64,000 nt of DNA. Source: an uncultured Eudoraea sp. (lineage in GTDB: Bacteria; Bacteroidota; Bacteroidia; Flavobacteriales; Flavobacteriaceae). The translations under genes were made by a program, and so were the position numbers. Shown one piece after another: positions 29,657 through 34,620 of the stretch. Location of the stretch: positions 62,001-126,000 of the forward strand of contig CAMYIE010000012.1 in the NCBI GenBank assembly GCA_947258405.1, written 5' to 3'. The first letter of the stretch is position 1. Each line of letters opens with the position of its first letter. The notes beneath the pieces are model-generated. The model made no database searches and was not told where the DNA came from. It was given only the letters and a program-made list of their open reading frames with translations.

Positions 29657-30718
29657 CTATTTCCTGATGTCAGGCTTTGTAGGTTGCGATCTTTTGAACT
29701 TCAGAACCTCAGACCTGCCCTTTTTAAATATTTTATTGCTCACCACTTTGCCGCGTCTCAGTCTTTTCTGTTCTTCAAATGGCAATGCATTGATCTCCTT
29801 GCACGGATCACTACAACAGTTATCCATTTTTTCTGCGCAGGTTTCGCATTGAATAAAAAGCAAATGACAGGCTTCATTGGCGCAATTTACATGAGTATCA
29901 CAAGCTTCACCACACTGGTGGCATTGGGCGATTATGTCGTCTGAAATACGCTCACCCCTCCTTTGATCAAAAACAAAATTCTTTCCTGTAAACTTATTTT
30001 CCAGCTCTTTCCGGCGCACCTGCCTGGTGTACTCTATGATGCCTCCCTCGAGCTGAAATACACGTTGAAAACCCTTGTGTTTATAGTAGGCGCTGGCTTT
30101 CTCGCATCGGATCCCTCCGGTGCAATACATCACCAGGTTCCTATCTTCTTTATGTTCGGCCAATTGTTCTTCTATGATGTCAAGGGAATCCCTAAAGGTA
30201 TCCACATCGGGTGTGATGGCGTTCTGGAAATGTCCGATCTCACTTTCATAATGATTCCGCATATCCACCAAGATGGTATCCGGGTCATCAAGGATAGTAT
30301 TGAACTGCTCCGCGTTCAGGTGAACTCCCCTATTTGTCACATCAAAACTTCCATCGTCCAGACCATCTGCAACAATTTTTTTACGCACCTTTATTTTAAG
30401 TTTTAAAAAAGATTTATTGTCTTGTTCAATGGCGATGTTCAGACGTACTCCTTCCAGAAAACCAATGCTGTCGAGATGGTCTTTAAAGTCCTTAAAATTT
30501 TCTGAAGTAACGGATAATTGGGCATTAATGCCTTCACGGGCCACATAGATCCGCCCTAATACATCCAAATTGTTCCAGTGAATAAAAAGGTAATCCCTGA
30601 AAAGCCCCGGGTTACCAATATGTGCGTACTTATAGAAAGAAATAGTAAGTCTGTCCTTACCGGCTTTATCGATAAGGGCTTCCCTTTCCTTAGCACTTAA
30701 AGTATTGTACAGTTGCAT
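29657..30718 (-). CDS. trhO: tRNA uridine 34 hydroxylase, rhodanese family TrhO (YceA-like)
   Basis: The 353-residue rhodanese-fold enzyme has the active-site loop YCTGGIRCEKASAYYKHKGF. The N-terminal half carries the UPF0176/TrhO acylphosphatase-like domain. The C-terminal tail has many cysteines (CHQCGEACDTHVNCANEACH, plus CETCAEK and CCSDPC) that may bind zinc. TrhO adds oxygen to uridine 34 of some tRNAs, together with prephenate-dependent TrhP in E. coli. No partner is next to it. It is convergent with the secreted protein at 28881. Confidence 0.9.
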   Translation of the reverse strand: MQLYNTLSAKEREALIDKAGKDRLTISFYKYAHIGNPGLFRDYLFIHWNNLDVLGRIYVAREGINAQLSVTSENFKDFKDHLDSIGFLEGVRLNIAIEQDNKSFLKLKIKVRKKIVADGLDDGSFDVTNRGVHLNAEQFNTILDDPDTILVDMRNHYESEIGHFQNAITPDVDTFRDSLDIIEEQLAEHKEDRNLVMYCTGGIRCEKASAYYKHKGFQRVFQLEGGIIEYTRQVRRKELENKFTGKNFVFDQRRGERISDDIIAQCHQCGEACDTHVNCANEACHLLFIQCETCAEKMDNCCSDPCKEINALPFEEQKRLRRGKVVSNKIFKKGRSEVLKFKRSQPTKPDIRK

Positions 30719-30786
30719 GCTATACCAATGATTAAGTTTAAAGAATAGTCCGGGGTAAAATTAGAGATAATTATCAGGTAGACAAT

Positions 30787-30818
30787 GAAAAAGAGCTTTG
30801 AAAGACTTCAAAGCTCTT
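30787..30818 (-). terminator. Intrinsic terminator, minus strand, upstream of trhO
   Basis: Perfect 12-bp stem AAGAGCTTTGAA / TTCAAAGCTCTT with a 4-base loop and a short T run on the minus strand. It lies between trhO (starts 30718) and recA (starts 31020), so it must end a minus-strand transcript that begins within this spacer, or act in both directions. Confidence 0.7.
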
Positions 30819-30844
30819 AACTGGCCATCCCGCTGTCTTCTTTT

Positions 30845-30949
30845 TCATAGATAGTCCATTGAGGTAATGGCCTCAGCTTTTTCAGCTGCAATAACCTTGG
30901 ATTTATAGGTGTGGTACGAACACTTTGTATTATGATACTGTTGATCCAA
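30845..30949 (-). CDS. Possible small protein, 34 residues, unrecognised (TTG start)
   Basis: An open frame of 34 codons from TTG 30949 to TGA 30845 lies just before the minus-strand terminator at 30787-30818. The translation begins MDQQYHNTKCSYHTYKSKVI and continues AAEKAEAITSMDYL. There is no ATG start, and an in-frame stop (TAA) lies a few codons upstream. Coding is supported only by the composition and by the adjacent terminator. It could also be a small RNA gene rather than a protein. Confidence 0.25.
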   Translation of the reverse strand: MDQQYHNTKCSYHTYKSKVIAAEKAEAITSMDYL

Positions 30950-31019
30950 AAAGGTTGCTTACTGCATTGTTATATCCAAAATGAATGGTAATTTAGCTCT
31001 CCTATCAAAAAAACTGTAA

Positions 31020-32024
31020 ATGAGCGAGAAAGAAGCGAAATTAAAGGCGTTAAAACTCACCCTTGATAAACTTGACAAGACATACGGCAAAGGTGCCGTA
31101 ATGAAGATGGGTGATCATGTAATAGAAGACGTAGAAGTGATCCCCTCGGGTTCTATAGGCCTCGATCTGGCAATGGGTGTAGGTGGCTATCCAAGAGGCC
31201 GTGTAATCGAGATATATGGCCCGGAATCATCTGGTAAGACCACACTTACCTTGCATGCTATTGCAGAGGCACAGAAAAATGGAGGGATTGCTGCCTTTAT
31301 CGATGCAGAACATGCTTTTGATAGGTTTTATGCGGAAAATTTGGGGATCGACATTGATAATCTTATCATATCGCAACCCGACCATGGCGAGCAAGCATTG
31401 GAAATTGCAGACAATCTGATTCGCTCGGGTGCCATAGATATTGTAATTATCGATTCGGTGGCTGCGCTTACACCAAAAAGCGAAATCGAGGGTGAAATGG
31501 GAGATTCAAAAATGGGACTTCATGCCCGACTGATGTCTCAGGCGTTAAGAAAGCTGACTGCATCGATCAGCAAAACCCGATGTACCGTAGTTTTTATCAA
31601 CCAGTTGCGTGAAAAGATCGGCGTTATGTTCGGAAATCCCGAAACTACCACCGGCGGAAACGCTTTAAAGTTTTATGCTTCAGTACGCCTCGATATCCGG
31701 AGATCTACTCAAATAAAGGATACAGACGGCAGGGTGCTGGGCAACAAGACCCGCGTCAAAGTGGTTAAAAATAAAGTGGCTCCCCCTTTCAAAATGGCAG
31801 AATTTGATATTATGTACGGGGAAGGGATCTCCAAGGTTGGTGAGATACTGGATCTTGGTGTGGATTATGAAATCATCAAGAAAAGTGGTTCCTGGTTCAG
31901 CTATGGCGATACAAAACTCGGCCAGGGCCGGGATGCTGTAAAAGCTCTTCTCAGTGATAACCCTGAACTTCTTGAAGAACTTGAGGAGAAGATAAAGGAA
32001 GCCATCCAGACCGTGAAAGCATAG
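31020..32024 (+). CDS. recA: RecA recombinase
   Basis: The 334-residue RecA is the ATP-dependent strand-exchange protein of homologous recombination. Walker A is GPESSGKTT (67-75), the Walker B region is [17 protein letters not shown], and L1/L2 loop motifs ([13 protein letters not shown]) are intact. The C-terminus is shorter and less acidic than that of E. coli RecA, which is usual in Bacteroidota. Upstream there is no obvious LexA-type operator I can defend. Confidence 0.98.
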
Positions 32025-32117
32025 TCTAAAAAGGCTTCTCTATTTTAAAAGATACGTTTTCTAAGCAACCTTTAACCCTAGTTTTCATCCTTTTGTTAAT
32101 GATATTGCGTGATGATC

Positions 32118-32534
32118 ATGAAGAAAACGTTCTTACTCATACTCTGCTGTATCGCCATTACTATTACTTCATGCAGCCTTAATGACGACAGTGTAGAATT
32201 TAATTTTGTTCCATTACAGATCGTAGATGCAGAGTTTCCGGAATCATTTACCCTGAACGAAACTTACAATATCAAGATTACCTATGTCATTCCCAACAAC
32301 TGTATAGCCTTTGAAGGATTTGATATAAGTAATATTGATATAACCAGCAGGAACATTGTGGCCATCGGCTCTGAACGTCTGGACGAGGTGTGTAATCTCG
32401 TTGCGGTTGAAGCTGAAGGATCCCTGGATTTTATTTGTTTATATGAAGGCACGTACTTTTTCAGAATGTGGACTGGAGAAGACGAAAACGGAGAACAGCA
32501 GTATATCGAATTGGAGGTCCCGGTAGTACCGTAG
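32118..32534 (+). CDS. Small lipoprotein, unknown function
   Basis: The 138-residue protein begins at ATG 32118 with a lipoprotein signal (MKKTFLLILCCIAITITSC, lipobox ITSC then SLNDDS). In-frame starts at 32109 and 32112 give two or three more residues. The mature domain (FTLNETYNIKITYVIPNNC, YEGTYFFRMWTGEDENG) looks like a beta-sandwich of the kind found in flavobacterial surface lipoproteins. I do not recognise the family. It precedes the ECF sigma gene by 36 bases, so it may be part of the same regulon. Confidence 0.7.
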   Translation: MKKTFLLILCCIAITITSCSLNDDSVEFNFVPLQIVDAEFPESFTLNETYNIKITYVIPNNCIAFEGFDISNIDITSRNIVAIGSERLDEVCNLVAVEAEGSLDFICLYEGTYFFRMWTGEDENGEQQYIELEVPVVP

Positions 32535-32570: not shown

Positions 32571-33104
32571 TTGAGTAGCATAGAGGAACTCATATCAGGT
32601 TGTAAAAAGGGAGACAGGAGATCCCAGGAACAATTGTATAAGAAATATTCTAGCAAATTGTTCGGTGTATGTCTAAAGTATTCCCGTACCAGGGTGGAAG
32701 CGGAAGATAGTCTTCATGATAGTTTTATGACGATCTATGATAAAATTGAGCAGTATAAATCCAAAGGATCTTTTGAAGGTTGGATGAAAAGGATCGCGAT
32801 CAATACGGTCTTACAGAAATATCGCAAGGAACAGCGCCTCAAACTGGTAAATGACAACCTTATGGAGGAGATCGACAGAGAAGAAATGTATGGTGATATA
32901 GGTCTTCAGACCTTATTGAGATATATACAGGAACTACCCAATAAGTATAGGTTAACCTTTAATATGTATGTTCTTGACGGATATTCCCATAAAGAGATCA
33001 GTGAGGCCCTGGGAACATCATTGGGGACATCGAAATCTAATCTTGCAAGAGCAAGGATGATTTTAAGAGAAAAGATCAAAAAGCAAAATATCAACATTGC
33101 CTAA
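32571..33104 (+). CDS. ECF-type RNA polymerase sigma factor
   Basis: The 177-residue sigma-70 family protein has region 2 (LYKKYSSKLFGVCLKYSR; AEDSLHDSFMTIYDKIEQYK; GSFEGWMKRIAINTVLQKYR) and a region 4 helix-turn-helix (LPNKYRLTFNMYVLDGYSHK, then EISEALGTSLGTSKSNLARA). It is a TTG start in this reading; no ATG fits. Bacteroidota ECF factors of this size control surface or stress functions. It overlaps by eight bases with the longest frame of the anti-sigma partner, whose preferred ATG at 33115 lies ten bases after this stop. Confidence 0.9.
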   Translation: MSSIEELISGCKKGDRRSQEQLYKKYSSKLFGVCLKYSRTRVEAEDSLHDSFMTIYDKIEQYKSKGSFEGWMKRIAINTVLQKYRKEQRLKLVNDNLMEEIDREEMYGDIGLQTLLRYIQELPNKYRLTFNMYVLDGYSHKEISEALGTSLGTSKSNLARARMILREKIKKQNINIA

Positions 33105-33114
33105 AACCAATGGC

Positions 33115-34620
33115 ATGAACAAAAAGGATATAGATAAATTGTTTCAGGACAAACTGGGCGATTTCCGTGAAATACCCGATGAAAAGGTATGGAAATCCAT
33201 TGAGCAGTCCCTGAATCAACGCAAAAAATCGAGGAGGATTATTCCGATCTGGTGGAAACTTGGAGGTGCCGCGGCTATCCTCGTTCTTGGCCTAATGTTT
33301 TGGAATCCGTTTTCAGGCCCGGAGCTGGCAGCTCCTGCCATAACCGATGTGGAAAAAGTGGTGCCAGATAACCCCGCGAATAGTAAAGTTGACCCGAACC
33401 AAATGCAAAATGGTGAATCAGAAATTAAGTCTTCTGAAATCACCAACACGGATGATGATATAAATCCGAAAACGGAAACGAACAAGTTTCAGAAACCATC
33501 GTTCGATGAAAAATATCAGGTAGCCTCAGAGGATGGATCAGATAAAACAGTCTTGCCTTCTAAATCTCTCAGTGGGGAAGCAGCAGATCCTGTTGAAACA
33601 TTAGTTGACAAAAGCACGGCAGATGAATACATCGATCCGGCGAACGCAACCAATCGATCTGAGGAAAATGTGGCCCAAATCGAGCAAAACCAGAAACAGC
33701 TTGATAATACCAACAGTGTAATTGCTGATCGTCAGGAGAAATTATCGGAAACGGAAACAGATCCACGGGCCTTACCAGAACAAACAGAAATCGCCCAGCA
33801 AGAAACGGAAAAGAATATCATAGAAGAATCGGGGAAAAAATCCATTTTCGATGAGATCAACAAGGAAGACGATCTACTGGCAGAAGTTTCAGGTCCTAAA
33901 TGGTCTGTAGGACCGAGCATCGCCCCGGTCTATTTCAACTCATTTGGCGACGGATCACCTATACATTCCAATTTTGCTACTAATTCCAAGACAGGGAATG
34001 TTAATCTGAGTTATGGGGTGGCGGTGAGCTATGATGTTTCAAAGAAGTTAAGCGTAAGGTCGGGTTTACATAAAGTAGATTATGGCTATAACACTAATGA
34101 TATAAGTTTTTCTTCTTCATTGGTGGCATCGACCAGTTCAGAGATCACTAATATTGATTACAACAGCAATTCCAGGAATCTTGTGGTTGAAAGCAATTCT
34201 TCGCGGTCTAACTCCGAGGATTTTTCAGCCAATGATATCATTGCTCAAAGCCCATCGAGAAATGGCACTATGGTTCAGGAGTTTGGCTATCTGGAGGTGC
34301 CATTAGAACTCAACTATGCCTTGTTAGATAGAAAGCTTAGCATAAATCTGGTGGGTGGTGTTAGTTCACTTTTCCTGGTCAATAATTCGGTAACCCTTGA
34401 ATCTGAAGGTGCCTCTACTGAAATGGGAGAAGCCAATAATTTGAACGACCTGAATTTTAGCACCAATGTTGGGCTGGGCATTAACTACAAACTGAACAAC
34501 ACAATGAAGGTTCATCTCGAACCAATCTTTAAATATCAATTAAACATGTTCTCGGACGTAGAAGGGAATTTTCAACCTTATTCCCTTGGAGTTTATACCG
34601 GGATGAGTTTTAAGTTTTAA
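33115..34620 (+). CDS. Membrane-anchored anti-sigma-like protein with C-terminal outer-membrane barrel-like domain
   Basis: The 501-residue protein starts at ATG 33115 (MNKKDIDKLFQDKLGDFREI). Residues about 1-40 (DEKVWKSIEQSLNQRKKSRR) resemble the sigma-binding helix region of Bacteroidota anti-sigma proteins. A single membrane span follows (WWKLGGAAAILVLGLMFW). The middle is a long acidic and Asn/Glu/Ser-rich linker. The C-terminal third (WSVGPSIAPVYFNSFGDG; LSYGVAVSYDVSKKLSVRSG; VGLGINYKLNNTMKVHLEPI) looks like an outer-membrane beta-barrel domain ending in Phe. It lies directly after the ECF sigma gene. Cytoplasm, inner membrane and outer membrane are therefore all implied by one chain. 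Confidence 0.8.
   Translation: MNKKDIDKLFQDKLGDFREIPDEKVWKSIEQSLNQRKKSRRIIPIWWKLGGAAAILVLGLMFWNPFSGPELAAPAITDVEKVVPDNPANSKVDPNQMQNGESEIKSSEITNTDDDINPKTETNKFQKPSFDEKYQVASEDGSDKTVLPSKSLSGEAADPVETLVDKSTADEYIDPANATNRSEENVAQIEQNQKQLDNTNSVIADRQEKLSETETDPRALPEQTEIAQQETEKNIIEESGKKSIFDEINKEDDLLAEVSGPKWSVGPSIAPVYFNSFGDGSPIHSNFATNSKTGNVNLSYGVAVSYDVSKKLSVRSGLHKVDYGYNTNDISFSSSLVASTSSEITNIDYNSNSRNLVVESNSSRSNSEDFSANDIIAQSPSRNGTMVQEFGYLEVPLELNYALLDRKLSINLVGGVSSLFLVNNSVTLESEGASTEMGEANNLNDLNFSTNVGLGINYKLNNTMKVHLEPIFKYQLNMFSDVEGNFQPYSLGVYTGMSFKF

Follow-up and report, generated by a model that had tools for sequence, protein, structure and literature searches.

A sigma and anti-sigma pair of the Dma/Reo type beside recA in Flavobacteriaceae, with lipoproteins and a small structured RNA as its apparent targets

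Envelope stress in Escherichia coli is read by sigmaE-RseA, in which the envelope sigma factor is held at the inner membrane and released by the action of a periplasmic and then an intramembrane protease on RseA, and which works with the small RNAs MicA, RybB, and MicL. In the FecA-FecR-FecI system, an outer-membrane barrel signals across the periplasm to an ECF factor. For Bacteroidota, in our view, little is settled about how damage to the outer membrane is relayed to the cytoplasm.

The closest described systems are those of Bacteroides and Phocaeicola, and the architecture of the protein analyzed here is already published as a kind, as Dma1/2 and EcfO-Reo of these genera. Dma1 and Dma2 of Bacteroides thetaiotaomicron, with Das1 and Das2, share this architecture and have published genetics; according to excerpts of that work, dma1 mutants and dma2 mutants hypervesiculate, and the dma2 phenotype requires the sigma gene das2 (PMC13088901). 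In Phocaeicola, excerpts describe an anti-sigma factor (M0N98_03760) that is predicted to cross the periplasm and to carry a C-terminal barrel (PMC9308784). The M0N98_03761/03760 pair is named EcfO-Reo in the corresponding excerpts, its anti-sigma mutants act via the sigma factor, and it is required for NigD production, with three nigD lipoprotein genes in its regulon (PMC9308784, PMC13114119). NigD3293 appears upon deletion of reo and, in mice, is not seen when ecfO-reo is lacking (PMC13114119, excerpts).

The window, that is, the whole stretch of DNA analyzed, comprises 64,000 nucleotides from an uncultured Eudoraea sp. (assembly GCA_947258405.1, contig CAMYIE010000012.1, positions 62,001 to 126,000). 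A sequence-only reading had picked out from it an ECF sigma gene paired with an anti-sigma-like gene, and both assignments held. The sigma gene (32571 to 33104, forward strand) codes for 177 amino acids from a TTG start (alignment A2 of 16 sequences), and its product belongs to the ECF sigma factors, as it contains sigma-70 regions 2 and 4 (Pfam Sigma70_r2, 1e-13; Sigma70_r4_2, 2.1e-15) in a protein of ECF size and reaches 81.8 bits with the NCBIfam model TIGR02937, against a cut-off of 42.9. TTG or GTG stands at the conserved start position in 42 of 47 lipoprotein-linked loci, although two of the 42 (L037 and L039) have an in-frame ATG a few codons upstream; with such a start, the sigma factor may be translated little and be scarce.

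The partner ORF, delimited mechanically, runs from 33097 to 34620, but the alignment with its relatives begins only with the ATG at 33115, so the protein starts there (33115 to 34620, forward strand) and has 501 amino acids. The alignment (A1), an AlphaFold model (AF2), and fold searches all portray it as an anti-sigma-like protein with an outer-membrane barrel, of the Dma/Reo type, and the succession of parts anticipated by the sequence-only reading was recovered in full, each on the forward strand. The N-terminal region of about 42 residues (33115 to 33240), with model helices at residues 3 to 14 and 23 to 37, is conserved and would be the cytoplasmic part that binds the sigma factor. It is followed by a single predicted transmembrane helix at about residues 45 to 66 (33247 to 33312; residues 45 to 62 in the model), where P44, W46, G51, A53, and A54 are invariant in the 17 rows of A1; as a basic stretch, KKSRR, precedes this helix, the N terminus is expected to lie inside. 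The linker of 195 residues (33313 to 33897) is predicted to be disordered, with a pLDDT of about 30, and its 45 D/E versus 19 K/R make it acidic. The remainder (33898 to 34617) is a predicted outer-membrane beta-barrel of about eight strands, whose last residue is Phe. Pair identity over 45 homologues is about 49% in the N terminus with the transmembrane helix and about 49% in the barrel, versus 15% in the linker, a distribution that excludes chance. With the window protein as the query, no paralogue was found in its own genome at an E value of 0.01.

The sequence score of the barrel is marginal (OMP_b-brl_2, PF13568; 27.4 bits with a cut-off of 27), and a search for solved structures related by sequence to the partner gave none that was meaningful, with one chance match at an E value of 0.32. 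The model has a mean pLDDT of 51 and no residue that reaches 90, with much of the barrel between 70 and 86. Its best 50 Foldseek matches are outer-membrane beta-barrels, headed by OmpA (E value of 8e-5, TM score of 0.63 by target), and the best VIA-align matches are OmpW, OmpA, NspA, and OprF, with Z scores of 13 to 14.5 over 131 to 175 residues (OmpW, Z of 14.5 and rmsd of 3.0 over 169 aligned residues; OmpA, Z of 13.0 to 14.3). A soluble beta-sandwich, the fold that would have undone the original proposal, finds no support in silico, as these best matches are all to outer-membrane barrels. The further suggestion that one chain reaches from the cytoplasm to the outer membrane is supported by the predicted barrel and by the published examples of the same architecture.

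We consider it probable that the pair is a flavobacterial version of the Dma/Reo (dual-membrane-spanning) anti-sigma system, in which a disturbance of the outer membrane would free the sigma factor onto promoters of the form MGCAACC-N15-YATCT. The barrel would be inserted in the outer membrane, the linker would cross the periplasm, the helix would span the inner membrane, and the short N terminus would hold the ECF sigma factor. An outer-membrane disturbance that the barrel senses or the linker passes on would then free the sigma factor through cleavage, pulling, or the conformation of the barrel, and the freed factor would raise the expression of its own operon, of lipoproteins, of membrane micropeptides, and of an RNA divergent from recA.

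How the signal would arise and be passed on can be read in other ways. The barrel could be an anchor or substrate whose failed assembly sets a periplasmic protease on the linker, after which an intramembrane protease frees the N terminus, as happens with RseA. To such a cleavage switch we give slightly less than an even chance, as a long and unconserved linker would lend itself naturally to proteolysis and the Phocaeicola pair is induced by antibacterial toxins, with envelope stress named as the likely signal in excerpts of that study (PMC9308784); against it, the linker columns of A1 show no obvious conserved motif. That the barrel instead recognizes one particular ligand at the cell surface, for example LPS or a glycan, and is not a stress sensor is rather unlikely. 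Residues 335 to 354 and 363 to 379 have low model confidence and are variable in A1, so they may be long outer loops, and the authors of Dma2 hypothesize an unknown glycan (PMC13088901, excerpts), but barrels of 239 amino acids (standard deviation, 4.5) with 49% identity across genera among the 45 homologues suggest a shared cue. Improbable, in our judgment, is a mechanical tether, in which the linker signals how far apart the membranes are or whether they are attached, and stretching or vesiculation pulls the N terminus off the sigma factor. Linker lengths cluster near a median of 192 amino acids over the 45 homologues while the sequence drifts, which would suit a tether, as would the hypervesiculation of the dma1 and dma2 mutants (PMC13088901, excerpts). 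However, a range of 74 to 305 amino acids implies a loose constraint. The contour length, about 70 nm by a simple estimate, also exceeds the width of the periplasm, which is 20 to 30 nm.

The flavobacterial Dma/Reo reading also concerns the genes around the pair, and a search for the same pair in relatives, suggested as a check at the outset, was successful. A sigma gene lies directly upstream of the partner homologue in 82 of the 83 loci with a match (L001 to L083, which include a few repeats of the same place). The order lipoprotein-sigma-anti-sigma is found in 20 of 20 database loci and recA lies upstream of the operon in 19, the remaining contig beginning at the lipoprotein gene; the nearest named relative found is a Robiginitalea MAG (70% identity). 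Within the phylum, the partner matched 94 of 296 genomes searched for the order and 48 of 296 for the phylum. We found no mention of a recA-lipoprotein-sigma-anti-sigma locus of Flavobacteriaceae in the literature searched. In the window, recA (31020 to 32024, forward strand, from the ORF list) lies between two putative promoters, and the first gene of the operon codes for a small lipoprotein (32118 to 32534 from the first ATG, forward strand; the ORF opens with a GTG at 32109), which occupies the same place in all 20 loci and whose Cys19 is invariant in the alignment. Its model is all-beta (pLDDT of 87), and its best three VIA-align matches are Bacteroidales proteins (5bmt, Z of 6.8; 3k0y, 6.4; and the NigD-like 3qwn, 6.3), matches that are weak, with Z under 8, and tied with the next, complement proteins at 5.9. 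Foldseek gave no match at an E value of 0.001, the search for solved structures related by sequence gave none meaningful (one match at an E value of 3.3), and Pfam detected no NigD family in 17 members of the lipoprotein family at an E value of 0.1.

The same N-terminal region adjoining a sigma gene is joined to other C termini in relatives, as seen with Pfam in 20 chosen proteins. Barrels were found in L052, L065, and both proteins of L083, three of the four under the Pfam cut-off, while a VWA/YfbK region plus a TonB-plug-like domain follows the N terminus in L067 (2997 to 5396), L068, L069, and L072, and a plug-like domain alone is present in L081. L070 (665 to 2908, also with a plug-like domain) and L071 (1677 to 3911) combine VWA with a T9SS sorting tail (Por_Secre_tail, E values of 2e-12 and 4e-10, respectively), that is, an inner-membrane protein whose far end resembles surface-secreted cargo. 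No C terminus was recognized in the other nine, among which L060 has a barrel region by alignment A1.

The putative ECF-type promoter of the operon, AGCAACC-N15-CATCC, lies at 32064 to 32090 on the forward strand, and a second, divergent copy, AGCAACC-N15-TATCA, at 30933 to 30959 on the reverse strand. Among 45 distinct loci whose sequence extends 100 nt or more beyond the lipoprotein gene on its upstream side, 41 have GCAACC followed by YATC there, with a spacer of 15 nt in 39 and of 14 nt in 2; the misses are L042, L047, L046, whose stretch is cut short, and L051, where the lipoprotein gene comes after the anti-sigma gene. We also counted MGCAACC-N15-YATCT in 100 Flavobacteriaceae genomes of 100 genera and sought the partner in the same genomes. 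The 83 genomes with a match to A1, which can include paralogues, contain 440 sites including the operon's own (mean of 5.3, minimum of 1; reversed control, 43). The 17 genomes without a match contain 3 sites (control, 5), a difference (Mann-Whitney P value of 8e-11) partly confounded with genome size and shared ancestry, as 14 of the 17 are small (1.3 to 2.2 Mb); the other three, at 2.6, 3.1, and 4.8 Mb, contribute 1, 0, and 0 sites. Among five relaxed sites in the genome from which the window comes, the operon copy and the copy divergent from recA alone resemble promoters, and in each the second box is weaker. In a class sample outside the family, 141 of 247 genomes have at least one site, with the control often matching and no clear excess by eye. 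The GCAACC-N15-YATCT promoter was not found in the literature searched, and the text descriptions of the six motifs of Flavobacterium psychrophilum are without GCAACC in the excerpts of that paper (PMC9723704).

For 36 sigma genes at loci without a detected lipoprotein gene, the motif lies within 300 nt upstream in only 3 (one of them, L038, adjoins recA), so the assignment of the promoter rests on linkage and co-occurrence, and the paralogues at these loci probably use other promoters. The same scarcity at related sigma genes would favor another ECF factor as the owner of the GCAACC promoters, with the operon merely one of its targets, a very improbable reading, given that 41 of 45 loci carry the motif ahead of the operon and that it is nearly absent where this partner type is absent. 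If transcription is by the sigma factor of the operon, the GCAACC promoter would be a direct reporter for what the barrel senses.

The candidate regulon was examined in nine genomes chosen from these 100, at all 50 listed sites besides the operon and the copy divergent from recA. Of these, 33 closely precede a lipoprotein ORF and 6 a transmembrane peptide of 28 to 35 amino acids, 39 in total. The lipoproteins were recognized by a lipobox rule at 27 sites and by eye, from a Cys after a signal stretch, at four (L182, L183, L189, and L203); the remaining two are L205, at 93 nt, and L190, whose ORF is cut short by a stop. The other 11 sites precede neither type of ORF, nine of them lying inside longer ORFs on one or the other strand, L235 lying 66 nt before an ORF of 287 amino acids, and L231 before none. 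The lipobox rule applies to 27 of 31 ORFs after a site versus 11 of 55 other ORFs of the same stretches, a set that may hold non-genes (P value of 1e-9). Many of the candidate lipoproteins have acidic residues after the Cys, which we take to resemble the surface-export signals of Bacteroidota. Pfam searches with four of them gave one DUF6970, plus Lipocalin_4 and Big_1 below the cut-off. Clustering of the regulon products with blastp placed 36 of 40 in clusters and was discounted, as the clusters are partly joined by signal peptides. The micropeptides directly after the GCAACC promoter (L185, L191, L195, L202, L219, and L221, one site in each of six genomes) are conserved, with a single transmembrane segment and a pattern like MKILxxISILIVINLILLxFSVNKKTDP, of which L221 is a divergent member.

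The divergent copy of the promoter is present at 18 of 23 recA loci, on the strand that points away from recA; among the misses, the sequence of L038 covers just 70 nt upstream, GCAACC is paired with a different second box in L015 and L018, and no copy is seen in L021 and L047. In the window, this promoter would be followed by an RNA of about 145 nt (30781 to 30926, reverse strand, its start placed from the promoter) that closes with an intrinsic terminator (30791 to 30818, reverse strand), a 12-pair stem with a T-rich tail. In the alignment of 16 sequences (A5), 97.5% of the cells in two helices are paired (100% in the terminator helix), and both sides have changed in 15 of 20 base pairs, with 36 such cells versus 11 in shuffles, a level reached by 0 of 500 of them in an alignment that was made without structure but from which the structure was derived, and whose rows were chosen as the compact form. 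Slid controls were far lower, and the fold z score is -2.4. This covariation points to a conserved structured RNA. Rfam gave no match at the gathering score for the window and eight loci, and three subthreshold rows only for eight more; a conserved structured RNA beside recA was not found in the literature searched. A conserved ORF in the window-type RNA was rejected by inspection, as the reading frame that follows the ATG is not the same from locus to locus. The divergent sites of the window and L002 to L020 yielded no ORF that ends in DGG.

In more distant genera, the transcript instead encodes a peptide of 30 amino acids with (C/F)KxDGG at its end. This holds for 13 of the 38 sites that we examined; one of the 38 (L177, on the minus strand) is the promoter of the operon, located where a contig ends. 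These loci are L049, L162, L163, L165, L167, L168, L170, and L172 to L177; synonymous codon changes are visible in the DNA of the peptide, and its stop codon falls, by eye, within an apparently conserved stem. Neither micropeptide family (the transmembrane peptides of 28 to 35 amino acids and CKxDGG) was found in the literature searched. Downstream of the RNA terminator, the window contains a gene (29657 to 30718) that is, presumably, trhO/yceA-like, as we recognized it from its sequence. With the terminator between the divergent promoter and this gene, trhO is less likely to be the product of the promoter in the window. Excerpts of the F. psychrophilum study place yceA with another ECF motif, SM6, and it is possible that the RNA is the same as Rfp18 or Rfp11 of that study (PMC9723704). 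Altogether, lipoproteins and a small structured RNA appear to be under the control of the switch beside recA.

Compared with the E. coli response, the flavobacterial system resembles sigmaE-RseA in having an envelope sigma factor that would be held at the inner membrane and that may also drive a small RNA, which could, by analogy only, act on the mRNAs of outer-membrane proteins as MicA and RybB do. RseA, unlike the flavobacterial partner as predicted, stops short of the outer membrane, and the transcript, unlike the sigmaE RNAs, resembles a peptide mRNA in other genera. FecA and FecR divide barrel and inner-membrane regulator between two proteins, whereas the window partner is one chain. We see even odds that this system serves Bacteroidota as a counterpart to the sigmaE small-RNA response, with a single protein chain as its direct readout from the outer membrane.

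The likeness to Dma/Reo is closer and is one of architecture and published descriptions. By its sequence and predicted fold, the partner has the features that define the Dma type in excerpts of the original paper, and Dma1/Das1 and Dma2/Das2 share with the window pair the anti-sigma N terminus, one transmembrane helix, the disordered tether, the barrel, and the adjoining ECF sigma gene (PMC13088901). The Dma systems differ in belonging to Bacteroidales and in that dma2 shares an operon with BT_1557 and das2; their known outputs are vesiculation, nigD1, and PULs, and the excerpts do not mention recA linkage or an RNA (PMC13088901). What is described here is a system of Dma/Reo architecture across Flavobacteriaceae with a putative promoter and a list of candidate targets, although earlier literature may already note its presence there. 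EcfO-Reo, as the excerpts describe it, is likewise a sigma factor with an anti-sigma factor said to span from the cytoplasm to the surface. The flavobacterial lipoprotein matches NigD weakly by fold and not by sequence, but the nigD lipoprotein gene M0N98_03762 is numbered next to 03761-03760, just as a lipoprotein gene adjoins the flavobacterial pair, and these locus numbers suggest that nigD-ecfO-reo of Phocaeicola has the same gene order as the flavobacterial operon.
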